20,495 nt of DNA, from IMG/VR virus record IMGVR_UViG_3300009159_003223, positions 1 through 20,495 of that record. One strand, given 5' to 3'. Shown piece by piece: positions 3,921-20,295 of the stretch (positions within the stretch are counted from its first letter, which is position 1; each line of letters begins with the position of its first letter). The notes beneath the pieces are model-generated. The model did not search any database. It saw only the letters and a program-made list of their open reading frames with translations, and had not been told where the DNA came from. This stretch comes from a virus. A program made the position numbers and the translations under genes.

Positions 3921-6581
3921 ATGAGTTATATTGACGCACTATTTGATCGTGAGCACGATCGTATTCACACAGTAGAACGCCGCAATGGTGAGCGGGTCTA
4001 CAGAGAATATCCTGCAAATTATATTTTTTATTATGATGATGCCCGAGGTAATTTTAAAAGTATATACGGCACACCCGTATCAAGATTTTCTACACGCAAC
4101 AACAAAGAGTTCCGCAAGGAAGTCCGCGCTCACAGCCATAAGCCGCTTTATGAAAGCGACATCAACCCAATCTTTAGATGCCTTGAAGAAAACTACAAGG
4201 ACCAAGATGCGCCTGAACTTCACACAGCGTTTTTTGACATTGAGGTGGCTTTTGATAAAGACCGCGGCTTCTCACCTGTATCAGACCCTTTTAATCCCAT
4301 TACTGCGATTTCAGTCTATCTCGACTGGCTAGATCAATTGGTCACGCTTGCTGTGCCTCCCAAACATTTGAGTTGGGATACTGCCCATGAACTGGTCCAA
4401 GACTTTGAGAACACCATCTTGTTTGCTGACGAAGCAGACATGATCAAAACATTTTTGGATCTTATTGACGATGCAGATGTGTTGAGTGGCTGGAACTCAG
4501 AAGGCTATGACATTCCCTATACCGTGAACCGCTGTATTCGTGTGTTGAGCAAGGATGACACACGCAAATTCTGTTTGTGGGGGCAACTGCCCAAGAAGCG
4601 TATGTTTGAACGCTTTGGTGCTGAAAACGAAACCTATGACTTGATTGGGCGTGTGCATATGGACTATATGCAACTGTATCGCAAGTACACATACGAAGAA
4701 CGTCACAGTTATAGCCTGGATGCCATTTGTGAGTATGAACTGGGTGAGCGCAAGACACAGTTTGAAGGAACCCTGGATAGTTTATACAACCAACACTTCC
4801 GGACATTTATTGAGTACAACCGCCAAGATACATTGTTGATTGGTAAACTAGACAAGAAACTGCGCTTCTTGGATCTTGCCAATGAACTGGCACATGCCAA
4901 TACTGTACTATTGCAGACCACCATGGGCGCTGTGGCTGTGACTGAGCAGGCCATCATCAACGAAGCACATGAACGTGGCATGGTTGTGCCCAATCGCAAG
5001 CAACGACTCACAGACGAAGACACACAGGCCGCAGGTGCTTATGTGGCTTACCCCAAGAAGGGTGTGCATGAGTGGATTGGATCAGTTGACATTAACTCAC
5101 TTTATCCATCGGCAATTCGTGCCATGAACATGGGTCCAGAGACTGTGGTTGGTCAACTGCGTCAGACCATGACTGATAGACTGATCAAAGCCAACATGGC
5201 CAAGGGACAGAGTTTTGCGGCGGCCTGGGAAGGTATCTTTGCCAGTTTAGAATACACAGCCGTGATGAATCAAGAGCGTGGCACTGAGATCACAATTGAC
5301 TGGGAGTCGGGTGAAGAGTCTGTACACTCGGCCGCTGAGATCTGGACCATTATCTTTGATTCAAATCAACCTTGGATCCTCACTGCCAATGGCACTATTC
5401 TTACATTTGAGAAGAAGGGTATCATACCTGGCTTGCTAGAGCGTTGGTATCGCGAACGTCAAGAACTACAGGCTCAAAAGAAGGATGCAAAAGATGCTAA
5501 AGAGATTGCTTTCTGGGACAAACGACAACTGGTTAAAAAGATTAATCTCAACAGTCTCTACGGGGCTATTCTTAACCCGGGCTGTAGGTTCTTTGACAAA
5601 CGTATTGGACAGTCAACAACACTTACTGGTCGTTCGATTGCCCGGCACATGGACGCTCATCTTAATGAGCTCATCACAGGCGAATACGACCATGTGGGAA
5701 AAGCAGTTATATATGGTGACACAGACTCGTGTTATTTCTCCGCATGGCCGGTCCTCAAGACCGAAGTTGAAGAAGGCCGGATGGCATGGTCAAAAGAAAC
5801 TTGTATTCAACTGTATGACAGCCTTGCTGAGCAGGTCAACGAAAGTTTTCCCGCCTTCATGGAGCAGGCGTTTCATTGTCCCAGGGACATGGGTGAACTG
5901 ATCAAGTGTGGTCGTGAAACTGTGGCAGACCGTGGATTGTTTATCACCAAGAAGCGTTATGCTGTAAACGCCATTGATATTGAAGGCAAACGACTTGACG
6001 TCAACGGCGCAATTGGCAAAACCAAGGCCACAGGACTGGATCTAAAACGTAGTGACACCCCCAAAGTAATTCAAGACTTCTTGTTAGAAATTCTAAATAA
6101 ACTACTTGCTGGTGCAGGTCGAGATGAGATTGTAGAACGTATTCGTGAATTCAAGTATGAGTTCATGGAACGTCCAGGTTGGGAAAAAGGTTCACCCAAG
6201 CGTGTGAACAACTTGACCAAGTACCAGGCAGAAGAAACTCGATTGGGCAAAGCCAACATGCCAGGACATGTGCGAGCCGCAATCAACTGGAATAACATGA
6301 GAAAGATGAACAGCGACAACTACTCAATGGCCATTGTTGATGGTATGAAAACTATTGTGTGTAAACTCAAGTCAAATTCACTTGGGTGGACTTCAATTGG
6401 TTATCCTACGGATGAACAACGACTGCCCACATGGTTTACTGCTTTGCCATTTGACGATGGAGAGATGGAAGCCACTGTGGTGGATGGCAAGGTTGATAAC
6501 TTGCTAGGTGTGCTGGATTGGGATCTAGCATCGGCAACCAATACAGAAAATACATTTACTAACTTATTTGACTTCGAATGA
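3921..6581 (+). CDS. 43: Family B DNA polymerase, T4 gp43-like
   Basis: Replicative polymerase with 3'-5' proofreading, 886 aa (T4 gp43 is 898). The exonuclease motifs are in order: FFDIEVAF (Exo I, about residue 104), LSGWNSEGYDIPY (Exo II, about 188) and YNRQDT (Exo III, about 299). The polymerase motifs follow: DINSLYPSAIR (motif A, about 391), KKINLNSLYGA (motif B, about 538), YGDTDS (motif C, about 598) and TKKRYA (about 676). All catalytic acidic residues are present and there is no intron, intein or split, as occurs in some T4-like polymerases. Start is supported by GGAG at 3913-3916. It has its own promoter and overlaps the next gene by 4 nt (ATGA). The C-terminus ends in LFDFE, consistent with the gp43 tail that docks on the sliding clamp. 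Confidence 0.97.
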   Translation: MSYIDALFDREHDRIHTVERRNGERVYREYPANYIFYYDDARGNFKSIYGTPVSRFSTRNNKEFRKEVRAHSHKPLYESDINPIFRCLEENYKDQDAPELHTAFFDIEVAFDKDRGFSPVSDPFNPITAISVYLDWLDQLVTLAVPPKHLSWDTAHELVQDFENTILFADEADMIKTFLDLIDDADVLSGWNSEGYDIPYTVNRCIRVLSKDDTRKFCLWGQLPKKRMFERFGAENETYDLIGRVHMDYMQLYRKYTYEERHSYSLDAICEYELGERKTQFEGTLDSLYNQHFRTFIEYNRQDTLLIGKLDKKLRFLDLANELAHANTVLLQTTMGAVAVTEQAIINEAHERGMVVPNRKQRLTDEDTQAAGAYVAYPKKGVHEWIGSVDINSLYPSAIRAMNMGPETVVGQLRQTMTDRLIKANMAKGQSFAAAWEGIFASLEYTAVMNQERGTEITIDWESGEESVHSAAEIWTIIFDSNQPWILTANGTILTFEKKGIIPGLLERWYRERQELQAQKKDAKDAKEIAFWDKRQLVKKINLNSLYGAILNPGCRFFDKRIGQSTTLTGRSIARHMDAHLNELITGEYDHVGKAVIYGDTDSCYFSAWPVLKTEVEEGRMAWSKETCIQLYDSLAEQVNESFPAFMEQAFHCPRDMGELIKCGRETVADRGLFITKKRYAVNAIDIEGKRLDVNGAIGKTKATGLDLKRSDTPKVIQDFLLEILNKLLAGAGRDEIVERIREFKYEFMERPGWEKGSPKRVNNLTKYQAEETRLGKANMPGHVRAAINWNNMRKMNSDNYSMAIVDGMKTIVCKLKSNSLGWTSIGYPTDEQRLPTWFTALPFDDGEMEATVVDGKVDNLLGVLDWDLASATNTENTFTNLFDFE

Positions 6582-8276: not shown

Positions 8277-8488
8277 TGATCGAAACACACAAAAGAACTC
8301 TAGTGCGAATGCTTACATATCGCATTACTGCTTGGTTGTTTACAATCCTGTGGACCTATTTTTTCACAGGAGATTTAGGTAGTGCTACTGGATTTGCCAC
8401 TGCACTACATATTCTTTTAAGCATTGACTATTACATACATGAACGAATCTGGCTCAGAATCAAATGGGGTAGAGTTGACCCAAGATAA
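8276..8488 (+). CDS. Small DUF2061-family membrane protein
   Basis: A 70-aa protein matching the DUF2061 pattern: an N-terminal ETHKRTLVRMLTYRI, a first membrane segment (about residues 17-31, AWLFTILWTYFFTG), a second hydrophobic helix (about 36-53, GSATGFATALHILLSIDY), then YYIHERIWLRIKWG, the hallmark HER-W ending. The family is common in bacteria and found in phages but has no established function. The stop codon of the clamp gene supplies its start (TAATG), and it overlaps the following gene by 50 nt, so translation is probably coupled to the clamp. Confidence 0.8.
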   Translation: MIETHKRTLVRMLTYRITAWLFTILWTYFFTGDLGSATGFATALHILLSIDYYIHERIWLRIKWGRVDPR

Positions 8489-10046
8489 TTTAACTGCCAA
8501 GCAGAATGACTACGCTGTGTTCCTTCCGGCCATCAGCGGGTTCTATGCCACATTCATAGGCAAGCAAAGGAATGAACCATATGTGGATCCGGCTCGACTT
8601 CCTCAGGGCATTACTGATATGGAGCAACTTAATTGGCTCAACTCCAACAAAGCTCTTTTCCCGTACAAGTGGTCACTCTACTCTGGAGGACATGCTAATC
8701 TCGATCTTGCAAAACAAGACTGGTCAGAAGACATGGTACGGAACAGAGAGCCTGGTACTTTCATCCTCGGCGACTCAGGTGGGTTTCAAATTGCCAAGGG
8801 TCTTTGGGAAGGTGATTGGAAAGCCAACTCAGGTTGTGTTAAGGCTCAAAAGAAACGAAGTCTAATCTTAAACTGGTTAGATAACGTTGCTGACTATGGC
8901 ATGATCTTGGATATTCCCACATGGGTTATTCACGACAAACGTGTGTCGGGGATTATTGGATTCAGCACAACGGATAAAAAATTAGCATTGCAACAGGCAG
9001 TGGATGCTACCAAGTTCAACAACGAGTACTTCATGAAACACCGCAAAGGTGTAGCAAATGGTGGTGCCAAGTTCTTGAACGTGTTGCAAGGTGACAACCA
9101 TACGTCAGCAGATCAATGGTATGAGACCATGAAGGAATACTGCGATCCTGTCAAATATCCAACCACCCACTTCAACGGTTGGTCAATGGGTGGACAGAAC
9201 ATGTGTGACGTACACCTGGTGCTTCGCAGACTGGTAGCACTACGCTATGACAATTTACTTCAAGAGGGCAAACATGATTGGATGCACTTCTTGGGAACCT
9301 CCAAACTGGAGTGGGCTGTTTTATTAACTGTAATCCAAAGGGCCGTAAGAAAATATGTCAATCCAAACTTCACTATCTCGTTTGACTGCGCCAGTCCGTT
9401 CCTTGCAACAGCAAACGGACAGGTCTACTTTGAAAACGTGTTTGAACACGATAGCAAGTGGTCGTATCGCATGGCTCCTTCAGCCGACGACAAAAAGTAT
9501 TCCACAGACACACGCAAGTGGGGAACAGGTGTAGTAGCAGATGGCATCTATCCACGCTGGGAAGATTCACCCATAAGTGATTTGCTGAAGATGAAAGATA
9601 TTTGCATCTACAAGCCCGGTGATCTAAATAAGATTGGCAAAGAAGGCAAGACATCGTGGGACAGTTTCTCATATGCTTTGCTCATGGGCCATAATGTTTG
9701 GATGCACTTGACAGCAGTACAAGAAGCCAATCGACGTTTTGATGCAGGAGAATATCCTGCCATGATGCGTAGGTCAGGTGGAGACTATGCTCGGTTTGAA
9801 GACATTGTGGAGGCAATCTTTGCGGCACCAGATCGAGCAACTGCTGACGCTATTATCGAAGAGTATGATACATATTGGATGGAGATTGTGGGCACCCGAG
9901 GATTCAAAGGCAAGAAAACCAAGAATGCTAGAACACAATTCAATGCATTATTTGAATTTGAAGAAACTGACTCTGTACAACCAACCGATGATAGTGTACA
10001 ATTAGACACATCAGCATTAGATCAATTAGAAAATGAACAGACCTGA
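8439..10046 (+). CDS. dpdA: DpdA/TGT-like 7-deazaguanine DNA transglycosylase
   Basis: A 535-aa protein with the landmarks of tRNA-guanine transglycosylase-type TIM barrels: GDSGGFQ at 111-117 (general acid Asp112), FLNVLQGDN at 212-220 (TGT: VQGG), GWSMGGQN at 247-254 (TGT: GLAVGG), HFLGTSKLEW at 283-292 (TGT: YLMGVGKPED) and ISFDCASP at 313-320 with Asp316 in place of the nucleophile in FDCVLPTR. The TGT zinc motif CxCxxC is absent, as in DpdA, which swaps guanine for preQ0-type bases in DNA rather than tRNA. It is longer than many DpdAs; about 60 C-terminal residues are acidic and low complexity. ATG 8439 is preferred over an upstream TTG at 8424; neither has a clear Shine-Dalgarno, so reinitiation after the overlapping DUF2061 gene is likely. 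folE and queD homologues in the window support the call. Confidence 0.78.
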   Translation: MNESGSESNGVELTQDNLTAKQNDYAVFLPAISGFYATFIGKQRNEPYVDPARLPQGITDMEQLNWLNSNKALFPYKWSLYSGGHANLDLAKQDWSEDMVRNREPGTFILGDSGGFQIAKGLWEGDWKANSGCVKAQKKRSLILNWLDNVADYGMILDIPTWVIHDKRVSGIIGFSTTDKKLALQQAVDATKFNNEYFMKHRKGVANGGAKFLNVLQGDNHTSADQWYETMKEYCDPVKYPTTHFNGWSMGGQNMCDVHLVLRRLVALRYDNLLQEGKHDWMHFLGTSKLEWAVLLTVIQRAVRKYVNPNFTISFDCASPFLATANGQVYFENVFEHDSKWSYRMAPSADDKKYSTDTRKWGTGVVADGIYPRWEDSPISDLLKMKDICIYKPGDLNKIGKEGKTSWDSFSYALLMGHNVWMHLTAVQEANRRFDAGEYPAMMRRSGGDYARFEDIVEAIFAAPDRATADAIIEEYDTYWMEIVGTRGFKGKKTKNARTQFNALFEFEETDSVQPTDDSVQLDTSALDQLENEQT

Positions 10047-11025: not shown

Positions 11026-11250
11026 ATGGCCAAGCCATCATTTAAACACAATCCTCGTGTGGCTGAAATCTTCAACGATCTGGAAGTATTCATGGAATTC
11101 TGTCAGGACTACGGCTACAGATATAACGAGTCGGACCTGTATAATTTCAAGAGTTATGCATGGCAACAGTTTAACAAGTGGCATGCAGGCAAAAACGCCA
11201 AGAACATGTGGAGCGAAGATACTCGCAGACTGGCCGGATTCCGCGCATGA
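11026..11250 (+). CDS. Small conserved-looking hypothetical protein
   Basis: A 74-aa basic, aromatic-rich protein (EFCQDYGYRYNESDLYNFKSYAWQQF split over 26-51) with no membrane segment, no cysteine pair and no recognised motif. The start has an AAGGA Shine-Dalgarno at 11013-11017. The stop overlaps the following glycosyltransferase start as ATGA at 11247-11250. Compact composition and coupling to both neighbours argue it is a real gene. It may be a small DNA- or protein-binding accessory factor, but nothing in the sequence decides this. Confidence 0.7.
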   Translation: MAKPSFKHNPRVAEIFNDLEVFMEFCQDYGYRYNESDLYNFKSYAWQQFNKWHAGKNAKNMWSEDTRRLAGFRA

Positions 11251-12461
11251 GAAAACTATACTACATGGGCTTGGAGAGCTACGAAGCCCGCTACACACTA
11301 CAATTGACAGAGTGGAACCGACGTGTGTTTGACCGTAGAGGTCTTGATGTTGTGTATGTGCCAGGCACCACCATTGACAACACACAGGCCATATCAGTTG
11401 GGCAAGTGCTAGACGCACATGGTCGCAGTTACTTTGCCATGAGCCAGATGATGAACTTGGTTCAGCTCATGAAGAACGGCGAAGTAACTGCGGAAGATGT
11501 TATCTACTTTGAAGACATGTTCCAACCTGGCTTTGAAAGTCTTGGTTACATTATGAATCAGATTCCTCGAGAACAATGTCCACGTATCTTCGTACGTTGT
11601 TTGGCACAAGCTATTGACCCTGATGACTTTGTGCATGTATGGGGACTACAAAAGTGGATGGGACTATATGAACAAATGGTCAATGAGATGGTGGCTTTCT
11701 CGGGGGGTGCAGTATTGGCAACCAATGAGGAAATGGTCGCCCACATGCGCATTGCTGGATGGACTGCTCCGATCTACAACATTTCCGGTCTTGCATTTGG
11801 AAAAGCAGAAGTTCTTGGACGCATTGGCGGTAAAGAAAATATTAAATCTTTCGCGCTTCGTCCCCGGAGAGTTGGCTTTGCAGCTAGGTTTGACCAAGAG
11901 AAACAACCTGGCTTCTTTATGGATCTCATTGAGATGTATGGTGAACTCACCAGCGAACCGTGTGAGTTTGCAATATACAGTGGCGGACCTTTGCGATCCA
12001 ACAACCCAGAGTATGTTGAACGTGCCCGCCGTATGGAGGCAGAGGGGCGACTCAAGATCTATGACAACATAAGCAAGAATGAATACTATGCTCATCTCAA
12101 TAACACTCGTGTGCTGTTTAATTGTGCTTTACAAGACTGGGTCTCTAACACAGTTTCCGAGGCAGATACTCTCGGATGTAATGTATTGTATCCAGCGTAT
12201 CGTAGTTTCCCCGAAACCTTTGCTAATGATCCCAACCGCCTTTACGTACCATGGAGCATAGACGATGCCTATCACAAAATGTGTAATCTTTTGCAGACTC
12301 CTCATCACAACATGGGCCTTATTAGTGATTGGAATAATGGGACTGTTGATCGGGTTATTGATATTATTACCGATCAAGGTCATCAGTGGGATCGTTCGGG
12401 GTCTCGCTACCGAGATCATGTCCCGCACGAAAAATACCAAGTTGTAAAGATTGAAAAATGA
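11247..12461 (+). CDS. GT-B fold glycosyltransferase, GT4-like
   Basis: A 404-aa protein, MRKLYYMGLESYEARYTLQL at its start. A longer frame opens at 11178 inside the preceding gene, but ATG 11247 in an ATGA overlap is the likely start. The C-terminal half shows the nucleotide-sugar domain: RRVGFAARFDQEKQP (about 207-221), FAIYSGGPLR (about 240-249), LKIYDNISKNEYYAHL (about 270-285) and VLFNCALQDWVSNTVSEADTLGCNVLYP, where Glu in VSEA is the GT4-type ribose/phosphate ligand (E-x7-E region). No membrane anchor is seen. With the epimerases downstream it probably consumes a sugar made by this cluster. Acceptor is unknown. Confidence 0.72.
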   Translation: MRKLYYMGLESYEARYTLQLTEWNRRVFDRRGLDVVYVPGTTIDNTQAISVGQVLDAHGRSYFAMSQMMNLVQLMKNGEVTAEDVIYFEDMFQPGFESLGYIMNQIPREQCPRIFVRCLAQAIDPDDFVHVWGLQKWMGLYEQMVNEMVAFSGGAVLATNEEMVAHMRIAGWTAPIYNISGLAFGKAEVLGRIGGKENIKSFALRPRRVGFAARFDQEKQPGFFMDLIEMYGELTSEPCEFAIYSGGPLRSNNPEYVERARRMEAEGRLKIYDNISKNEYYAHLNNTRVLFNCALQDWVSNTVSEADTLGCNVLYPAYRSFPETFANDPNRLYVPWSIDDAYHKMCNLLQTPHHNMGLISDWNNGTVDRVIDIITDQGHQWDRSGSRYRDHVPHEKYQVVKIEK

Positions 12462-13408
12462 GTGTGGTAATTGTTACCGGCGTAGCCGGATACATTGGTG
12501 GACAGACTGCCTTGCTGTTGAAAGACGCAGGGCATGAAGTTTACGGCATTGACCGTAGAGAACCACCCAAACATCTGCGTGGTATCTGCGACAAGTTTTT
12601 GTACCAAGACTTTGCCAGTGATGTGGCCTTGAGTTACATTATTAATAAACAGCCGGATGCTGTGATTCACTGTGCTGGAACAAGTTTGGTAGGACCAAGC
12701 ATGCAAGATCCTGCAGAATACTACAACAACAATGTGGCCAAGACATTGCGACTACTAGACATTGTTCGCAAAAGTTTGCCACGCTGTAGATTCGTGTTCA
12801 GTTCTAGTGCAGCCACCTACGGTGAACCCATGGTAAGTGCATGTTACGAAACTGATAGTTGCGTACCGTTGTCACCGTATGGTGAAAGCAAACTGATGAT
12901 TGATATGATATTGGAATCATACCACCGAGCATACAATCTCAACTATGTTAGTTTCCGATACTTCAATGCTTGCGGTGCCGATCCCAAAGGTAGACACGGA
13001 CAAGAACCTGGTGCCACACACTTGATTGCCAAGTTGCTGGAAGCCACAAGAGATAATGGACAATTTAGAATATATGGCGATGACTATCCTACTGCTGATG
13101 GCACTTGTATCAGGGATTATGTACACGTCGAAGACATCGCTCGAGCACATGCCTTAGCATTGTCTTCGTCTATTCCTGCAGGTATATATAACCTTGGGTC
13201 AAACTCGGGAACCAGTGTCAAACAAGTAATGGATCGGGCAAGAAAGATTGTTGGCAAAATGCCCTACATTGGTATAGAACAACGACGGGCCGGCGACCCT
13301 CCTGAGTTAACTGCAACCTCTAAAAAGTTTGATGCAGTAGCAGGTGTCTGGCGTCATCATGATCTAGACGCAATGATTCAACACGCATGGACATGGTACA
13401 ATAAATGA
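12458..13408 (+). CDS. galE: UDP-glucose 4-epimerase-like extended SDR enzyme
   Basis: A 316-aa NAD-dependent sugar epimerase. Residues 7-13 hold the GxxGxxG dinucleotide motif (GVAGYIG). VFSSSAATYGEP (about 112-123) carries the catalytic Ser, and Tyr141-x3-Lys145 (YGESK) is the catalytic pair. RYFNACGADP (about 168-177) and GTCIRDYVHVEDIARAH (about 213-229) are the GalE-type substrate motifs. All catalytic residues are intact. Length is slightly below the 338 aa of E. coli GalE. Overlap is ATGA on both sides. The exact 4-epimerase specificity (UDP-Glc/Gal, GlcNAc or another sugar) cannot be fixed from sequence alone. Confidence 0.85.
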   Translation: MSVVIVTGVAGYIGGQTALLLKDAGHEVYGIDRREPPKHLRGICDKFLYQDFASDVALSYIINKQPDAVIHCAGTSLVGPSMQDPAEYYNNNVAKTLRLLDIVRKSLPRCRFVFSSSAATYGEPMVSACYETDSCVPLSPYGESKLMIDMILESYHRAYNLNYVSFRYFNACGADPKGRHGQEPGATHLIAKLLEATRDNGQFRIYGDDYPTADGTCIRDYVHVEDIARAHALALSSSIPAGIYNLGSNSGTSVKQVMDRARKIVGKMPYIGIEQRRAGDPPELTATSKKFDAVAGVWRHHDLDAMIQHAWTWYNK

Positions 13409-14313
13409 AAATTTTTATAACTGGGGTATCTGGGTTTATTGGCAGTCACTTGGTTCCGTTGATGTCACAACATGAAGTTGTAGCACTCAGAGCTGACTTG
13501 CTGGACTTTGATGCAGTACGTAAAGAAGTACAAGCAGCTAATCCTGACATTATAGTACACTTGGCCGCACGTACAGAAGTTGAAAAAAGTTTCTACGAGC
13601 AAATTAGTTTTAGCCAAGTTAACTATGTTGGTAGTGTGAACTTAATCGAAGCCGCAAAAACTTGTAGCAATTTAAAAAACTTTGTGTTTGCCAGTACTAT
13701 GGAAGTGTACGGCTGGCAACCTATTAGTGATCAAGTTAAAAATCATGAAATTATAAATAGTGTAGCGTTCGATGAAAATACCGAACCTCATCCAAATGCA
13801 CCGTATGCTGTGGCCAAACTGGCAGTAGAAAAGTACTTGGAATATATACATCGTAGCCAAGGATTCCCGTTTACTGCTATTAGACAGACCAACGCATATG
13901 GTCGCCAAGACAATGACTTTTTTGTTACCGAGCAAATTATTAGTCAGATGCTCAAAAACCCCGAAGTGATAACCTTAGGATACGCAGATCCGTATCGTAA
14001 TTTTATCTTCGTCAACGACTTGTTAGATGCATGGTTGTCGGTTATACACAATCCAGAACTGTGTAATGGAAAGATTTTTACTATCGGTCCAGATCATCCA
14101 GTTAAAATACGTGACCATGCTGACTACATTGCTAGACAGTTAAAATGGAATGGCACTATCAAGTGGGATACAAAACCCAAAAGACATGGTGAAATATATT
14201 GGCTTAACAGTAACAATAACCTAATTACAACAACATTAGGATGGAAACCCAAGTGGACTTATGAACAAGGTATCGCAAGGACAATTGATATATGGCAAAA
14301 GAAGTTACACTAA
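13405..14313 (+). CDS. NAD-dependent nucleotide-sugar epimerase/dehydratase
   Basis: A 302-aa extended SDR enzyme, distinct from its neighbour. It shows GVSGFIGSH (residues 7-15, cofactor binding), LAARTEVEKS (about 53-62, the H-L-A-A motif), FVFASTMEVYGW (about 92-103, catalytic Ser/Thr) and Tyr134-x3-Lys138 in PYAVAK. YADPYRNFIFVNDLLDAW (about 191-208) is the usual R-x-F-x-x-V-x-D motif. Members act as 4-epimerases, 4,6-dehydratases or decarboxylases on nucleotide sugars. It overlaps the gene before by ATGA and the next by 22 nt. The coding sequence appears more AT-rich than the polymerase and dpdA regions. Confidence 0.85.
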   Translation: MKIFITGVSGFIGSHLVPLMSQHEVVALRADLLDFDAVRKEVQAANPDIIVHLAARTEVEKSFYEQISFSQVNYVGSVNLIEAAKTCSNLKNFVFASTMEVYGWQPISDQVKNHEIINSVAFDENTEPHPNAPYAVAKLAVEKYLEYIHRSQGFPFTAIRQTNAYGRQDNDFFVTEQIISQMLKNPEVITLGYADPYRNFIFVNDLLDAWLSVIHNPELCNGKIFTIGPDHPVKIRDHADYIARQLKWNGTIKWDTKPKRHGEIYWLNSNNNLITTTLGWKPKWTYEQGIARTIDIWQKKLH

Positions 14314-15428
14314 CACCCACACAGAAACACTGGGATAACAACACTCTAAACTACGATTTAGAAAAATACAACTGGCCTGCCTGGGCGTTGAGTGTTATAC
14401 AAGAGGTAGCCCCTGATATCAAGGAACTCGAAACACTTCACAAAGTGTTAACACCTACTGAAATTGTACGTGTGGCTGGACATGTGCAAAATGCCTGTAG
14501 TCGCAAAGACTTTATGGAACGATTTGATGCATTTACTGCTGAATATGTGCCGGGTCGCATTGCCAACAAACGTTTTATGATTCAACGGCAAGGTACATTG
14601 CGTGTGGTAATTCCCGAGCAATCAAAAGTTGGGCGTAGACTGCAATTCCACCAAGGCATCTTTGTAGGCAACGGTCGCGGTTGTAGAACTATATGGACTC
14701 CGTTTACACAAGCAGAAAAAACAAACACAATGTGGATCATGGACTTAGATGTCAGCCGCAATGTTACTAAACGTGTGTTAGCAGAAAAATGGAGTCTTGA
14801 ACGATTTGAAGAAGAATGCATGAAACATGCATGGCCTGTTACACTTGATCCTGGCCAGAGTCATTTGTTCTTCCAGGAACACTTGCATGGTAATGTGGAC
14901 AACAAAGAAGGCTACACTCGTGTCAGTATGGACATGCGCATTCTAATCGAAGGTGAGGAGTGGGGCCGTAGATTACCTGGCGGCTTTATGCGGCTACCCG
15001 GAGACCATGAAGTAGCAGAGACTGGCAACTATATTGGCAAGAGCTTTATTACCTATGCAGGGTGGAATTCAACTTTTTCTAAAAACATTCCATTGCCCAT
15101 GCAACGTGCCACAATGGAACCATACTGTGCAAAAAACAAAATTACATACACCAACTACGAGTTTGAAAACGAACACCTAGATTGGCAACCTAGTTTAGAA
15201 TACTTTATCAAAGAGCATCCAGATGGCATTGTGTTATGTAGCATGTACTCATTAACCGATGACGTACAGCGTAGAAGCGAGCTGTTACAACTAGCATTGG
15301 ATCACGGCGTAGAGTTGCATTTTGCTAACGAGTCAGTCAGTTTGAAGTGCAAAAAAGATTTGGAAAAAATTGAAACGTATCTTAATTTTGCTGTTCCAAA
15401 ATTTGGTCCCTATGTTTGGGAAGAATAA
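14292..15428 (+). CDS. Fusion of 2OG-Fe(II) oxygenase-like and LIC12192-like carbohydrate-cluster domains
   Basis: A 378-aa two-domain protein. Residues about 70-240 resemble the 2OG-Fe(II) oxygenase of sporadic carbohydrate clusters: RRLQFHQGIF with His120, TIWTPFTQ, then FFQEHLHGN with His197/His199 and RVSMDMR. Gly122 stands where the acidic iron ligand of H-x-D/E is expected. Residues about 250-375 (GWNSTFSKNIPLPMQR, YCAKNKITYTNYEFE, DGIVLCSMYSLTDD, HGVELHFANES) resemble the LIC12192-type protein found beside that oxygenase in bacterial surface-sugar loci. The two are usually separate genes. Start is inside the upstream gene; stop and next start share TAATG. Function in modifying a sugar intermediate is inference. 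Confidence 0.62.
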   Translation: MAKEVTLTPTQKHWDNNTLNYDLEKYNWPAWALSVIQEVAPDIKELETLHKVLTPTEIVRVAGHVQNACSRKDFMERFDAFTAEYVPGRIANKRFMIQRQGTLRVVIPEQSKVGRRLQFHQGIFVGNGRGCRTIWTPFTQAEKTNTMWIMDLDVSRNVTKRVLAEKWSLERFEEECMKHAWPVTLDPGQSHLFFQEHLHGNVDNKEGYTRVSMDMRILIEGEEWGRRLPGGFMRLPGDHEVAETGNYIGKSFITYAGWNSTFSKNIPLPMQRATMEPYCAKNKITYTNYEFENEHLDWQPSLEYFIKEHPDGIVLCSMYSLTDDVQRRSELLQLALDHGVELHFANESVSLKCKKDLEKIETYLNFAVPKFGPYVWEE

Positions 15429-16024
15429 TGTTTGAAAAAATTAAAAAGTTTGAAGAAGAACTAGCAGAGTTCACCGGAGCCCCGTATGCTGTCATGACCG
15501 ACTGTTGTACACACGCAATCGAATTGTGCTTGCGATATGAACGTGTCAGAGAATGCCAATTCACTCCTTATACCTATTTGAGTATTCCCATGCTCATGTA
15601 CAAGTTGGGTATTGAGTTTCAATACCTGGATCATGCTTGGCAACGTTGGCACGGAGAGTACCAATTCATCAACACAAAGATTTGGGATAGTGCAAGACGT
15701 TTAGAACGAGATATGTATCGCACAGGTTCTATGCAATGTTTAAGTTTTGGACATGACAAGCCTTTACATATAGGTCGTGGTGGTGCTATAATACTAGATG
15801 ACAAAGAGGCATATGATGCAATAATTTGCATGAGGTATGACGGACGTGATCTAAATATCAAACCCTGGATTGATCAAAAAGAATTTAGAGTTGGATACCA
15901 CTACAAGCCCACACCAGAAGAAGCTGTGCAAGGTATTGCGATGCTGGAAGGTCTGAAAGAACACTGCCCAGCACCTCGACAAGTTGACTATCCAGATTTA
16001 AGAACTATCACTATCAAGGACTAA
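15428..16024 (+). CDS. Half-length DegT/DnrJ/EryC1-like aminotransferase
   Basis: A 198-aa protein related to PLP-dependent sugar aminotransferases, which are normally 360-400 aa. It keeps KIKKFEEELAEFTGAPYAVMTDCCTHAIELCL (segments about 4-34, the N-terminal cofactor loop, where T-x-G-T-x-A is replaced by TDCCTHA), FTPYTYLSIP (about 41-50) and SFGHDKPLHIGRGGAI (about 107-122), in which Lys111 matches the PLP lysine. The C-terminal small domain is largely missing, yet the frame is open and the end is followed at once by the folE start, so it may be a natural minimal form. ATG 15428 shares TAATG with the upstream gene. It would be expected to make an amino sugar, if active. Confidence 0.65.
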   Translation: MFEKIKKFEEELAEFTGAPYAVMTDCCTHAIELCLRYERVRECQFTPYTYLSIPMLMYKLGIEFQYLDHAWQRWHGEYQFINTKIWDSARRLERDMYRTGSMQCLSFGHDKPLHIGRGGAIILDDKEAYDAIICMRYDGRDLNIKPWIDQKEFRVGYHYKPTPEEAVQGIAMLEGLKEHCPAPRQVDYPDLRTITIKD

Positions 16025-16025
16025 G

Positions 16026-16781
16026 ATGACAGAATCAAGAACATATAATGAAACAGCACTAGATGCCATGGCCGGAGATGGTGGTTACGGCCTGGCTAAA
16101 ATTTGCGATCATCTTCGCTTTAAATTCAAGCGTGACGGAAAAAGATTCTGGGCTGGCGACAACGTTAGCGAGTATATTGACGAGTCGATGAAAGAGCAAC
16201 TAATTAACGAAGCTACAACAGCGTTTGAAGGTGTACTTGATGCACTACTAATTGACAGAGAAAATGATCCAAACTCACAAGGCACAGCAAGGCGTCTTGC
16301 TAAAATGTACTTCAATGAAATCATGTCTGGCCGTTATGAGGCGAGCCCTAATGCTACGGCTTTCCCGAACGATACGGACGGAAAATATGACGGTATGCTT
16401 GTGGTGCGTAGCGAGCTTAAGAGCATGTGTAGCCATCATCACCAACCTGTTACGGGTGTGGCTTATATTGGAATCATTGCTGGCCCCAAACTCATTGGTT
16501 TATCCAAGTACACTCGGATCGCGCAGTGGTGTGCCAGACGTGGAACTTTACAAGAAGAGCTCTGCATGGACATCGCTCGTGAGATCGAGTTCGCAACTGG
16601 ATCCCGAGATGTTGCTGTTTATATTCAGGCTACCCACGGATGTTGCGAGAATCGTGGTATTATGGCTCACAGTAGTCTCACCCAAACAACGGTACTCCGT
16701 GGAGCATTCAAAACAGACCAAAGCGTAAAGAAGGAATTCTTTGACAACATCAAACTACAACAGGACTTTGCACCAAGATGA
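16026..16781 (+). CDS. folE: GTP cyclohydrolase I
   Basis: Converts GTP to 7,8-dihydroneopterin triphosphate, the first step of folate and of 7-deazaguanine synthesis. It is 251 aa against 222 in E. coli. Cys135, His137 and His138 in SMCSHHHQP match the E. coli CEHH motif with zinc ligands C110 and H113 and catalytic H112. Cys206 in THGCCENRG matches the third zinc ligand C181. GIIAGPKLIGLSKYTRIAQW and QEELCMDIAREI are the classic core segments, and LRGAFKTD matches LGGLFKSS near the end. All active-site residues are present. Start has AAGGA at 16016-16020. With queD and dpdA homologues nearby, a role in making the base for DNA modification is likely. Confidence 0.95.
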   Translation: MTESRTYNETALDAMAGDGGYGLAKICDHLRFKFKRDGKRFWAGDNVSEYIDESMKEQLINEATTAFEGVLDALLIDRENDPNSQGTARRLAKMYFNEIMSGRYEASPNATAFPNDTDGKYDGMLVVRSELKSMCSHHHQPVTGVAYIGIIAGPKLIGLSKYTRIAQWCARRGTLQEELCMDIAREIEFATGSRDVAVYIQATHGCCENRGIMAHSSLTQTTVLRGAFKTDQSVKKEFFDNIKLQQDFAPR

Positions 16782-17182
16782 TCAAATACGCAACACTACA
16801 GGCCGCACAAGAAGGCAAGGTGGCACCCTGGGATCTAGAAGTTCCTGAACTCAGCACTCAACACGTGACTGTGTTTCGAGATCGTTTTCCAGTAACCGCG
16901 GGTCATTTGTTGTTTGTACCACGTAACAACACCGACGAAGGCATTGTTGTTTGTCTAGGTACCGCATTGATTGCCGGGCAACAGATGGTTGCTCGTGACG
17001 AATGTGACGCATTCAACGTGGGACTAAATATGGGAGAAGCCGCAGGACAAACTGTGATGTACCCGCATGTACACTTGATGCCAAGACGTGCAGGAGATAC
17101 AGTTGATCCCGTAGGCGGCGTCCGAGGAATTATCCCTGGACAGGCCAACTATCGCAAAGGCGATTATCAACTTCCTGATTAA
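16778..17182 (+). CDS. HIT-family nucleotide-binding protein
   Basis: A 134-aa histidine-triad protein, a family that hydrolyses or transfers nucleotidyl groups from dinucleotides and adenylylated amines. It has the N-terminal FRDRFPVTAGHLLFVPR (about 33-49) and GLNMGEAAGQTVMYPH plus HLMPRRAGD (about 82-107). His97-Val-His99 are the second and third histidines of the HxHxHxx motif; the first is replaced by Tyr95. The usual nucleophile is the middle histidine, so activity is possible. It overlaps folE by 4 nt and shares TAATG with the Rieske gene. A link to pterin or nucleotide-sugar metabolism is inference. Confidence 0.85.
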   Translation: MIKYATLQAAQEGKVAPWDLEVPELSTQHVTVFRDRFPVTAGHLLFVPRNNTDEGIVVCLGTALIAGQQMVARDECDAFNVGLNMGEAAGQTVMYPHVHLMPRRAGDTVDPVGGVRGIIPGQANYRKGDYQLPD

Positions 17183-18012
17183 TGTTTCTATCACTAAGTC
17201 AACACGTTCCAATTGGGCATGTAATCCCGTTACCCCAATATGATAATCGAGTATCCATTGTTAACAATGGAACGTTGTCTCTAATGAGCAACATTTGCCC
17301 TCATCAAAACAGTCGTATTGTTAGATGCGCTACTGACCACAGTCATTTACAATGTCCATACCATGGACTAAAATTTGATCACAACGGCGCAGGAGTAGAC
17401 AGCAAATACAGTCTAGAAAAATGGCCTGTGTATCAAAATCAAACCATGTTGTTTGATCAGCATGTGAGTTGCACATTTCCTATTGACACAAAAGACATGG
17501 CATTGATAGAACATCGGCAAGACATTGTCAATGCAAGTCCTGCAACTATCATGGATGTGTTTTTAGACATTGTTCATATTCCTGTTGCTCATGCCGGGGT
17601 ATATGAGCAGATTGGCATCACTGGTATTGGAGATCTCACCTGGTCTACATTTGAAAACGGTAGTATACAATTTGTACCGGCACAAGAAGGCATGGATATG
17701 GTGCTCGAAGATCGACAATATAATTTGGGTGCATGTTGGATGGCAGTGTACCCTGGTACCATGATTGAATGGCAACCAGGTGCATTGTTTGTCACAATGG
17801 CACACAGCATTGACGAAACAACCAGTCGTGTGCAGGTATACAAATACAAAGACAATCGATACTGGGAAGAAGCCTGGGCAATAAATCAGCAGGTGTGGGA
17901 AACCGCCTGGGCACAAGATCGAGAACTTGCTGAATCTATTGTGTATCCAGCTGTGGAAAATCTAGATGAACTAAAACAACACTACATGATTTGGAAACAA
18001 GATGCTGTGTAA
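17182..18012 (+). CDS. Rieske non-heme iron oxygenase
   Basis: A 276-aa oxygenase alpha-subunit-like protein. Cys39-x-His41 (CPH) and Cys58-x2-His61 (CPYHG), 16 residues apart, bind the [2Fe-2S] Rieske cluster. The mononuclear iron site is DIVHIPVAH with Asp129, His132 and His137; Asp246 in WAQDRELAES fits the third iron ligand. Family members hydroxylate, desaturate or demethylate small molecules with electrons from a reductase, which is not encoded here, so a host ferredoxin or reductase must serve. It is shorter than typical alpha subunits (340-450 aa), but both metal sites are complete. It overlaps the following gene by 11 nt. Confidence 0.9.
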   Translation: MFLSLSQHVPIGHVIPLPQYDNRVSIVNNGTLSLMSNICPHQNSRIVRCATDHSHLQCPYHGLKFDHNGAGVDSKYSLEKWPVYQNQTMLFDQHVSCTFPIDTKDMALIEHRQDIVNASPATIMDVFLDIVHIPVAHAGVYEQIGITGIGDLTWSTFENGSIQFVPAQEGMDMVLEDRQYNLGACWMAVYPGTMIEWQPGALFVTMAHSIDETTSRVQVYKYKDNRYWEEAWAINQQVWETAWAQDRELAESIVYPAVENLDELKQHYMIWKQDAV

Positions 18013-18868
18013 AAATTCATGGATAGACATGACCTGGGACGGCAAGCCGGCTAGAACTGGAAAAGAAAATATACAAGTTGAGTTTCATCAGCGAGCAAAA
18101 ACATTAATAAATTTTGATCTAGCTTGCGATATGGCGGCACGAGAAATTTATGACACACATAAAGATCTCTACTTGGGTCTCAGCGGCGGTGCAGACAGTG
18201 AGTATATTGCCACCTGTTTTCATCGCAATGGAATACCGTTTACTCCAGTTATTTTACAATACAATCTTGCAACTTCAAATGATCAAATATATGAATCTTG
18301 GTATGCAAAACAATGGTGCAGGCAACACAACGTAGAACCGTTGATAGTCAATATTGATGATTACGTAACTTCTAAACGTGAAGCAACCCTGTACCTCGAA
18401 CTCAAACCAAGATTGATCGGCGGTGCAGTTACCACAGGATTTTTAAAAAGTTGTGTGGAAGAACGCGGGGGAAAATTACTTTCTGGGTTTCAACTAGAAT
18501 ACTATCCGGATCACGAGCAAATGACTTATTTAGAATCACAACTAAAAAACTACAACGGATTTGTGTTGGAAGAATCAGATCTTTACATAGAAACACTAGG
18601 ACAAAATCAGCATCCGTGGGCGTTTTTTTATTGGAGTCCAGAAATAATTGCTGGATTCGTGCATGAGTGGAATGTTAATAAAACTATGACCGAAAACAAA
18701 TCTTTGATTTATAAAACCAGTTATAGACCTAAGTTTTCGTACCCAACAGGTTTTTTCCCAGGGCATCAATCGACTATTAGAAAAACAATTGCTAGTAGCA
18801 AATGGGGCACAAGAGACTGTGCATTAATGGGTAGCAGGGAACATTTGCTATCACAGTTATTGGAGTAA
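18002..18868 (+). CDS. PP-loop ATP pyrophosphatase (QueC-step candidate)
   Basis: A 288-aa protein with LYLGLSGGADSEYIATCF (about 56-73); Ser61-Gly-Gly-Ala-Asp-Ser66 is the SGGxDS PP-loop of N-type ATP pyrophosphatases, which adenylate a carbonyl before amination or thiolation. PFTPVILQYN (about 80-89) and VEPLIVNIDDY (about 111-121) are the next strands of this fold. QueC, asparagine synthetase, NAD synthetase and PAPS reductase share it. The C-terminal four-cysteine zinc motif of QueC is absent. The central region (LESQLKNYNGFVLEESDLYIE) has no known counterpart to me. Its place between folE and queD makes a preQ0-type amidation role plausible, but a sugar-amidation role fits the cluster equally. 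Confidence 0.7.
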   Translation: MLCKNSWIDMTWDGKPARTGKENIQVEFHQRAKTLINFDLACDMAAREIYDTHKDLYLGLSGGADSEYIATCFHRNGIPFTPVILQYNLATSNDQIYESWYAKQWCRQHNVEPLIVNIDDYVTSKREATLYLELKPRLIGGAVTTGFLKSCVEERGGKLLSGFQLEYYPDHEQMTYLESQLKNYNGFVLEESDLYIETLGQNQHPWAFFYWSPEIIAGFVHEWNVNKTMTENKSLIYKTSYRPKFSYPTGFFPGHQSTIRKTIASSKWGTRDCALMGSREHLLSQLLE

Positions 18869-18952: not shown

Positions 18953-19450
18953 ATGACACCAGTAGTTTACAAATATACCTCAACCAAAGAGTACCACGAC
19001 GCATTTCCATGTGCATACAGACAATGGAGGGCAGACAGTCATTGTAATTTGATACATGGATATTCGTTTAGTATGAAATTTTTCTTTGGCACAGATGACT
19101 TGGATGTGCGTAACTGGGCCGCAGACTATGGCGGCCTCAAAGAACTTAAAAAGACCCTGGAAGATCAATTTGACCATACGTTGCTGGTAGCACAAGATGA
19201 TCCAGAATTGGCAACATTCAAGTTACTGCAAGAGAAGAAAATGGCCAAACTCACAATACTGCCAAGGCTGGGCTGTGAAGGTCTTAGCGACATGCTGTAC
19301 AAGTATGTCAACGGTGTGTACATTCCAGACTTGTGGGGGCCAGGTGAAGCCAAGAGACTATGGTGCTATCGCATTGAAGTACGTGAAACGCAGGCCAACA
19401 TGGCCTTCCGTGAAGGGCATCGTGAATGGAATGAAGACTTGTTTGCATAA
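18953..19450 (+). CDS. queD: QueD-like 6-carboxytetrahydropterin synthase
   Basis: A 165-aa T-fold protein of the QueD/PTPS family, expected to act on dihydroneopterin triphosphate made by FolE. Cys31 in SHCNLIHGYS aligns with the catalytic Cys of C-x3-HGH; FDHTLL (about 74-79) is the L-D-H motif with the catalytic His; GCEGLSDML (about 103-111) and YRIEVRETQ (about 142-150) hold the substrate-binding Glu residues. Of three zinc histidines only His35 is in place: Tyr22 and Tyr37 stand at the other two positions, with His15 or His30 as possible substitutes. It has its own promoter and a strong AGGAG. Its stop is shared with an in-frame ATG of the next gene. Confidence 0.8.
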   Translation: MTPVVYKYTSTKEYHDAFPCAYRQWRADSHCNLIHGYSFSMKFFFGTDDLDVRNWAADYGGLKELKKTLEDQFDHTLLVAQDDPELATFKLLQEKKMAKLTILPRLGCEGLSDMLYKYVNGVYIPDLWGPGEAKRLWCYRIEVRETQANMAFREGHREWNEDLFA

Positions 19451-19461
19451 TGGAGATGTCG

Positions 19462-20295
19462 ATGAAAGAACATGAATACGGTATTGCTATGCTGTTGGCC
19501 ACTCGTGGTCGAACAGAAAGCCTGGGTCGTAGTATACGTAGTTTGGTAGAGCTAGCCGACGATGTTAGTCGTGTGCAAATCATGTTTGCGTTTGACAATG
19601 ATGACGACGTGGGGTTCAAGTACTTTGCGAATGAACTGCAACCTTGGATGGACGAGCGTGACATAAGTTATACTGCCATGAAGTTTGAACGCATGGGCTA
19701 TGTGAACTTACACAAGTACAACAATGCCATGGCCAAGCACACCGACAGTGACTGGTTGGTGATCTGGAACGATGATGCTGTGATGCAAAGTCAAGGTTGG
19801 GACACCACCATACTCAGTTATACCGGCCAGTTCAAACTGCTGAGTTTTTGCACTCATCGCATGCATCCTTATTCAATCTTTCCTATAGTACCCCGAACAT
19901 GGTATGACCTGCTGGGCTATATCAGCCCTCATCCCACACAAGATGGTTGGGTAAGTCAGCAGGCCTACATGCTGGACATCTATCAGCGAATTACCGTGGA
20001 TGTGCTGCATGATCGATTTGACTTGACTGGCAACAACAACGATGATATCTATGCCAATCGTCCCATGCTAGAAGGCAAGCCCGATGATCCTAGAGACTTT
20101 CACAGCAAAGAGATGATAGATTTGCGCCATTTAGATTGTGCTAAATTGGCCACTGTCATGCGTAGACAAGGCATGAACACTGAATTTTTTGAAAATATTT
20201 TTAAAGGCACACAAGACCCCTGGCAGAGACTGGCCGAAAATGACATCAACAGCCAAATGGTACAGTTTGCCAATCCACATGTGCTCAAGGCTTAA
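19462..20295 (+). CDS. GT-A fold glycosyltransferase, GT2-like
   Basis: A 277-aa protein from ATG 19462; upstream ATGs at 19450 and 19456 are in frame, but GGAG at 19452-19455 sits 6 nt before 19462. The opening IAMLLATRGRTESLGRSIRSL (segments about 7-27) is the nucleotide-sugar strand of GT2-like enzymes, with VQIMFAFDNDDD following. DSDWLVIWNDDAV (about 94-106) carries the metal-binding Asp-Asp of the DxD position. A C-terminal LTGNNNDDIYANRP region may be part of the acceptor site. No membrane helix is present, so it is probably cytoplasmic. Donor and acceptor are unknown. Confidence 0.75.
   Translation: MKEHEYGIAMLLATRGRTESLGRSIRSLVELADDVSRVQIMFAFDNDDDVGFKYFANELQPWMDERDISYTAMKFERMGYVNLHKYNNAMAKHTDSDWLVIWNDDAVMQSQGWDTTILSYTGQFKLLSFCTHRMHPYSIFPIVPRTWYDLLGYISPHPTQDGWVSQQAYMLDIYQRITVDVLHDRFDLTGNNNDDIYANRPMLEGKPDDPRDFHSKEMIDLRHLDCAKLATVMRRQGMNTEFFENIFKGTQDPWQRLAENDINSQMVQFANPHVLKA

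Follow-up and report, generated by a model that had tools for sequence, protein, structure and literature searches.

The locus studied here raises the question of what a Rieske oxygenase does in the middle of a phage operon. The window, by which we mean the whole stretch of DNA analyzed, is an entire IMG/VR record of 20,495 bases, and all of its features named below lie on the plus strand. It codes for a family B DNA polymerase of the jumbo-phage type (PolB; 3921..6581) that is 51% identical to that of Sinorhizobium phage Phosso, 46% to that of Vibrio 2.275.O and 45% to that of Atu_ph07, all of which are jumbo phages. The viral setting is thus supported both by the record as a whole and by its PolB. 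A first-pass annotation, made from the sequence, had described the gene at 17182..18012 as a complete Rieske oxygenase of a short form, set in a phage operon without an accompanying reductase and coupled by overlaps to HIT and PP-loop genes, and had proposed that it carries out a tailoring oxidation of a base or sugar made by the cluster.

An intact Rieske oxygenase of short form

The gene (17182..18012) begins with an ATG codon and codes for a putative Rieske non-heme iron oxygenase of 276 amino acids, which matches the Pfam Rieske family (PF00355; E = 2.8e-9; 37.2 bits against a cut-off of 20.3). The [2Fe-2S] ligand motif, formed by C39-P-H41 and C58-P-Y-H61 (CPHx16CPYHG; 17296..17364), the bridging Asp129 with the mononuclear iron ligands His132 and His137 (17566..17592), and Asp246 (17917..17919), assigned as the carboxylate ligand of this iron by analogy with the 2-His-1-carboxylate triad, are all invariant in an alignment of 34 viral homologues with identities down to about 21%. 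Comparison with the Rieske gene of a sister contig (L002) gave a dN of 0.035 against a dS of 0.43, the mark of purifying selection; this, and the invariance of the ligand residues, rule out a chance ORF or motif. An AlphaFold model, with the 34-sequence alignment as input, has a pLDDT of 94.2 and a pTM of 0.91, and its best Foldseek matches are stachydrine demethylase, CntA and oxygenases of the saxitoxin pathway (TMq of about 0.58-0.75, with about 0.75 for the first two; E = 1.9e-13); a structure search among viral models returned two matches, at a TM of 0.52. With the cluster ligands, the iron triad, the bridging Asp and the two-domain fold all present, the sequence and the model assign the protein to the Rieske alpha-subunit class, with oxygenase activity as the predicted function.

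The short length is a trait of the family, most members of which have 267-300 residues, and not a truncation. No reductase ORF was recognized within the window, and a search of ten large related contigs with the plant-type ferredoxin profile (Fer2; PF00111, the only profile used) found no match, the control genomes being positive in 12 of 14 cases. The completeness of both metal sites, the short form and the lack of an accompanying reductase therefore stand as first described, and the gene, set in a phage operon, appears to code for an enzyme that is intact and under selection.

The oxygenase gene lies in a 7-deazaguanine operon

The operon opens with a gene for a DpdA-like DNA guanine transglycosylase (8424..10046; start probably at 8457), which shows the TGT-type motifs DSGGFQ and SFDCASPF. 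The protein is 35% identical to hypothetical proteins of PA5oct-like phages and has relatives in at least 574 viral contigs; searches of Pfam, PHROGs and NCBIfam gave no family match, so that the name DpdA rests on motifs and context. Next in order are genes for a glycosyltransferase-like protein (11244..12461; 'GT8' cluster, which is not GT family 8; PF13692, E = 0.003, below the cut-off), a GalE-type UDP-sugar epimerase (12458..13408; TIGR01179, E = 6e-87, above the cut-off), a second NAD-dependent sugar epimerase/dehydratase (13405..14313; PF01370, 1.4e-42), a sporadic-carbohydrate-cluster 2OG-Fe(II) oxygenase/LIC12192-like fusion (14292..15428; TIGR04324, 4.7e-19, and TIGR04323, 4.6e-13, both below the cut-off), a short DegT-family aminotransferase-like protein (15428..16024; PF01041, E = 1e-16), FolE (GTP cyclohydrolase I; 16026..16781; PF01227, E = 1.1e-39) and a HIT-domain protein (16778..17182; PF01230, E = 2.3e-9). 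The Rieske and PP-loop genes follow, and then those for a QueD-like 6-carboxytetrahydropterin synthase (18953..19450; PF01242, E = 2e-14; TIGR03367, E = 2.4e-8, below the cut-off) and a putative glycosyltransferase (19450..20295; 'GT4' cluster, which is not GT family 4), named by sequence reading and with no Pfam match. The HIT stop and the Rieske start share the sequence TAATG (17180-17184), and the Rieske stop and the PP-loop start overlap by 11 nt, as the first-pass annotation had it. The 2OG oxygenase/LIC12192-like fusion is a single protein, missing in L002, and the DegT-family protein, of about 200 residues, has about half the usual length, a length kept in its relatives.

In L002 the operon extends to a B12-type radical SAM protein and then to a QueE-like protein, the latter called from a weak radical-SAM match and sequence reading. 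Phage 7-deazaguanine DNA-modification systems with DpdA, FolE, QueD and QueE have been described (PMC6884629). Judged by the same gene set, namely the DpdA-like protein, FolE and QueD with the QueE-like protein of L002, the operon of the window is a 7-deazaguanine DNA-modification operon.

A phage-specific family of oxygenases

A DNA pattern scan for CPHx16CPYHG and an alignment-based scan together gathered 45 viral loci, to which scans for the PP-loop and DpdA-like proteins added more; after removal of near-copies, 42 distinct viral Rieske genes were left. The carriers are large freshwater phages. In a collection of 50,697 records no isolated phage encoding the family was found; the sole direct match to a phage record, Acinetobacter phage MD-2021a (CAKLQH020000026.1; L011), was rejected as likely contamination because the genes around it (purE, mpl, hpt, trmE) are those of a bacterial chromosome. 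Two IMG/VR matches (L008 and L009) were set aside as other, unrelated Rieske proteins, and at L101/G023:31119-31898, one copy of the L100 type, the Rieske match has one internal stop (TAA).

The best relatives in the genome collection are about 25% identical, have 383-486 residues and are thus about 100 residues longer; their top score with the same profile is 87 bits, whereas full-length viral members score 236-498. In a maximum-likelihood tree, a branch with support 94/79 and a length of 1.16 divides 34 viral sequences from CntA, YeaW, HcaE and the bacterial set, while a second, divergent viral group (L034 copy 2, L104 and L106) has full support; because the branches are long, exact positions, the rooting and the joins between long branches are unsure. 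As far as sampled, the sequences point to the short Rieske oxygenases as a phage-specific group, separate from bacterial and characterized oxygenases. The phylogenetic check proposed in the first-pass annotation thus placed the protein in none of the metabolic oxygenase clades tested.

A PP-loop ATPase is the constant partner

The gene that overlaps the Rieske gene (18002..18868) codes for a protein of 288 residues with the PP-loop motif SGGADS, and SGGxDS is invariant across 28 PP-loop homologues. Its profile matches are to NAD synthetase (6e-6) and the NcsA thiolase (1.8e-5), with PF01171 below the cut-off; Foldseek, run with an AlphaFold model of pLDDT 83, returned TtuA (E = 8e-5), NadE, LarE and YcfA, in alignments that cover mainly the common ATPase part. 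The motif and the HUP-type fold of the model identify it as a predicted member of the N-type PP-loop ATPase superfamily.

The pairing was counted over the 37 distinct Rieske genes from Rieske-based searches, with finds of the PP-loop scan left out. A PP-loop gene of the same family adjoins 30 of them, follows immediately on the same strand with ends overlapping by 11-20 nt in 25, and is at most three genes away in 33. Among the unpaired cases, L052 is adjoined by a PP-loop gene of another family, L042 lies at a contig edge, and in L041 and L046 no PP-loop gene stands within three genes of the Rieske gene. The divergent second Rieske type also stands beside PP-loop genes (L034, L104, L106). When the 42 distinct FolE-QueD intervals from all scans are considered, a PP-loop gene is present in 17/17 with a Rieske gene as opposed to 3/25 without (Fisher p = 4.5e-9, uncorrected for shared descent or for the way in which loci were gathered). 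The Rieske gene has a constant partner, a PP-loop ATPase gene that is nearly always adjacent, in two genomic settings.

Within the DpdA operon the pair is optional

The DpdA scan yielded 33 loci with a complete FolE-to-QueD stretch, which have neither gene in 27 cases, both in three and the PP-loop gene only in three. The Rieske gene, missing in 30/33, was accordingly rejected as a core gene of the 7-deazaguanine pathway, and the pair, being optional, is not core to the synthesis of 7-deazaguanine. The site of the cassette is between HIT and QueD; a 331-kb contig (G024) with a DpdA-FolE-HIT-QueD relative of the operon contains no cassette. Of the two genes coupled to the Rieske gene by overlaps, HIT is thus not its specific partner: it is a backbone gene present in most relatives without a Rieske gene, and was rejected as a functional partner.

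Other genes are found at the same site. In the three loci with a PP-loop gene and no Rieske gene, a PLP aminotransferase-like gene (PF00155) stands in its place, the two genes together lying at L113:12542-14280, L142:17078-18824 and L150:17281-19027; methyltransferase-like genes, recognized by sequence reading, are found in the slot of L119 and L149, with another in L150, and the L119 protein has no Pfam match. Two or three PP-loop genes are present in L100-L107. In L104 (7180-10578), L106 (7180-12142) and L107, three PP-loop genes in a row come after a divergent short Rieske gene, and L106 has another Rieske gene beyond QueD. Since Rieske, PLP, methyltransferase-like or multiple PP-loop genes occur at one site, the slot seems to house interchangeable tailoring genes.

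Methyltransferase-like proteins in this slot are in line with one alternative view of the substrate, in which the cassette tailors an unusual sugar made by GalE, DegT and the epimerase, and the glycosyltransferases of the operon move it onto DNA or a surface structure. GalE, a further epimerase, DegT and the fused sporadic-carbohydrate 2OG oxygenase are all encoded in the window, and glycosyltransferase-GalE-DegT is, like HIT, part of the backbone. However, cassette-free relatives keep the sugar genes, and no sugar genes were recognized around the pair in the second genomic setting described below; we regard a sugar substrate as unlikely, though a serious contender.

A second genomic setting

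In L030-L055 the pair is often found among genes for fatty-acid desaturases, GNAT-like and 2OG oxygenase-like proteins and further PP-loop proteins. Membrane fatty-acid desaturases (PF00487) lie near the pair in about 13 distinct loci, often in tandem, and some of these loci also have genes for an AMP-ligase and an ACP synthase (PF01648). In L036, L038, L048 and L053 (about 8-18 kb), regions with desaturase, GNAT, 2OG, PP-loop, AMP-ligase and ACP synthase genes resemble a biosynthetic gene cluster. Three proteins of this setting (L048:13874-14767, L048:18537-19373 and L036:13765-14688) look, by sequence reading, like secreted substrate-binding proteins of tricarboxylate transporters, and might hint at betaproteobacterial hosts. 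Three large contigs of the second setting have DpdA, QueD and QueC elsewhere in the contig; L006/L050, with a PolB only 33% identical to that of the window, show no DpdA, QueD or QueC within 66 kb.

The desaturases and their GNAT-like, 2OG oxygenase-like, AMP-ligase and ACP synthase neighbors would fit a cassette that comes from a small-molecule or lipid pathway of the phage, with oxidation, amide formation and desaturation, and that entered the 7-deazaguanine operon as a mobile insert. In window-like phages, however, no desaturase stands beside the cassette, and the PP-loop proteins of the second setting are of different subfamilies, only 18-28% identical to that of the window, so that substrates may differ between settings as well; a lipid or small-molecule origin is, in our estimate, unlikely, though likewise a serious contender.

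The link to 7-deazaguanine and the question of QueC

Among the Rieske contigs of at least 100 kb, a DpdA-like protein and QueD are present in 9/10, several of which are near-identical. The PolB proteins of the large contigs are 64-93% identical to that of the window, and the co-occurrence may therefore reflect common descent. In some cassette operons a YhhQ-type (Vut_1) transporter gene adjoins QueD (L014:6902-7522, and similarly in L021-L028); its product possibly imports a 7-deazaguanine precursor.

The QueE product, CDG, is the substrate of QueC (PMC6884629), and no QueC above the cut-off was found in the window-type contigs tested, of up to 354 kb. From this it could be argued that the PP-loop protein replaces QueC in the conversion of CDG to preQ0, the Rieske gene being an unrelated passenger. 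Cassette-free relatives such as G024 lack QueC equally, which leaves the PP-loop protein unsupported as a simple QueC substitute; moreover, phages of the second setting carry QueC in addition to the pair, and every Rieske gene of the DpdA operon is accompanied by the PP-loop gene, all of which makes replacement of QueC very improbable.

A proposed oxidise-and-condense cassette

In known Rieske oxygenases the Asp-bridged electron link runs between subunits. In the viral enzyme, electrons would pass from a ferredoxin or reductase of the host, the presumed donor, to the [2Fe-2S] center and across Asp129 to the iron held by His132, His137 and Asp246, where O2 would be activated; such Rieske chemistry with a borrowed reductase fits the conserved bridging Asp and triad and the lack of Fer2 in the ten contigs. 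The Rieske protein would then oxidise the substrate and the PP-loop protein, probably in a second step, would adenylate a carboxyl or carbonyl group and join the substrate to a nucleophile. The likely substrate would be 7-deazaguanine, either the base itself or the side chain it carries, with 7-carboxy-7-deazaguanine as one example, and the product a further modified base of the phage DNA.

That the pair is an accessory cassette of this kind, tailoring the 7-deazaguanine base in this operon, is the reading we tentatively prefer, at somewhat less than an even chance. 7-Carboxy-7-deazaguanine is a substrate of QueC-family PP-loop enzymes (PMC13329287), and for some of these its attachment to protein has been proposed or shown (PMC13329287; PMC13279940); this analogy, the position of the pair between FolE/HIT and QueD and the co-occurrence with DpdA are what favor the base. 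Against it count the 27/33 DpdA-scan loci without the cassette, the pairs that lie in other phages away from 7-deazaguanine genes and near desaturase, GNAT-like and 2OG oxygenase-like genes, and a PP-loop protein that falls below the QueC family cut-off and whose closest structures cover mainly the common ATPase fold. Of the original proposal, a tailoring role is retained as the best reading, whereas the operon by itself is not enough to infer a base or sugar substrate, since the pair is optional there and is present in other genomic settings.

A wider reading, doubtful but worth stating, is an undescribed DNA hypermodification in which 7-deazaguanine is tailored by the Rieske oxygenase together with a PP-loop ligase, and in which swappable cassettes in the slot (Rieske with PP-loop, PLP enzyme with PP-loop, multiple PP-loops, or methyltransferase-like) would lead to differing products in related phages. 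Were the cassette to act on DNA, phage base modification would gain oxygenase chemistry and more variety against host nucleases; otherwise the pair is still a recurrent two-enzyme module of phages, accessible to tests with cloned genes.

Comparison with known systems

The quaternary-ammonium oxygenases CntA and stachydrine demethylase are closest to the viral family by both profile (E = 5.5e-16 for CntA) and fold. Together with YeaW they have in common with it the two-domain fold, the [2Fe-2S] motif, the bridging Asp and the 2-His-1-carboxylate triad, but they are some 100 residues longer than the viral proteins and only about 14-16% identical to them in structural alignments, and the viral clade includes neither CntA nor YeaW (support 94/79, with long branches). 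An ordinary auxiliary metabolic gene, that is, a host-derived carnitine/betaine-type Rieske monooxygenase for catabolism, is disfavored and hardly probable at all in view of this distance, of the longer and only distantly related best matches in the genome collection, and of a partner that is a PP-loop ATPase and not the reductase or transporter of CntA-type systems. The top bacterial profile matches are aromatic-ring-hydroxylating oxygenases of Burkholderiales (about 370-400 residues), which reach 118 bits in 399 genomes searched with a broader profile; these are full-length proteins with PF00848 (Ring_hydroxyl_A) and form a separate clade, whereas the viral protein has no PF00848 match in a Pfam search.

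The PP-loop protein of the window has the SGGxDS ATP pyrophosphatase motif in common with QueC, QatC and Cap9, but has no match to QueC (PF06508) at E = 0.1, and in its family weak matches were found in 2/28 members (best E = 0.004). The phage 7-deazaguanine systems described so far resemble the window in the backbone of the operon, and later work covers further 7-deazaguanine derivatives. In contrast to the window, the systems described in the literature searched have no Rieske oxygenase, and the word 'oxygenase' appears nowhere in PMC6884629; nor did this literature reveal a Rieske-dependent step in the modification of nucleic acids or in the biology of phages. Set beside these systems, the short Rieske oxygenase and its PP-loop ATPase look like an undescribed tailoring module of phages, in which a known kind of enzyme stands in a new two-gene arrangement.
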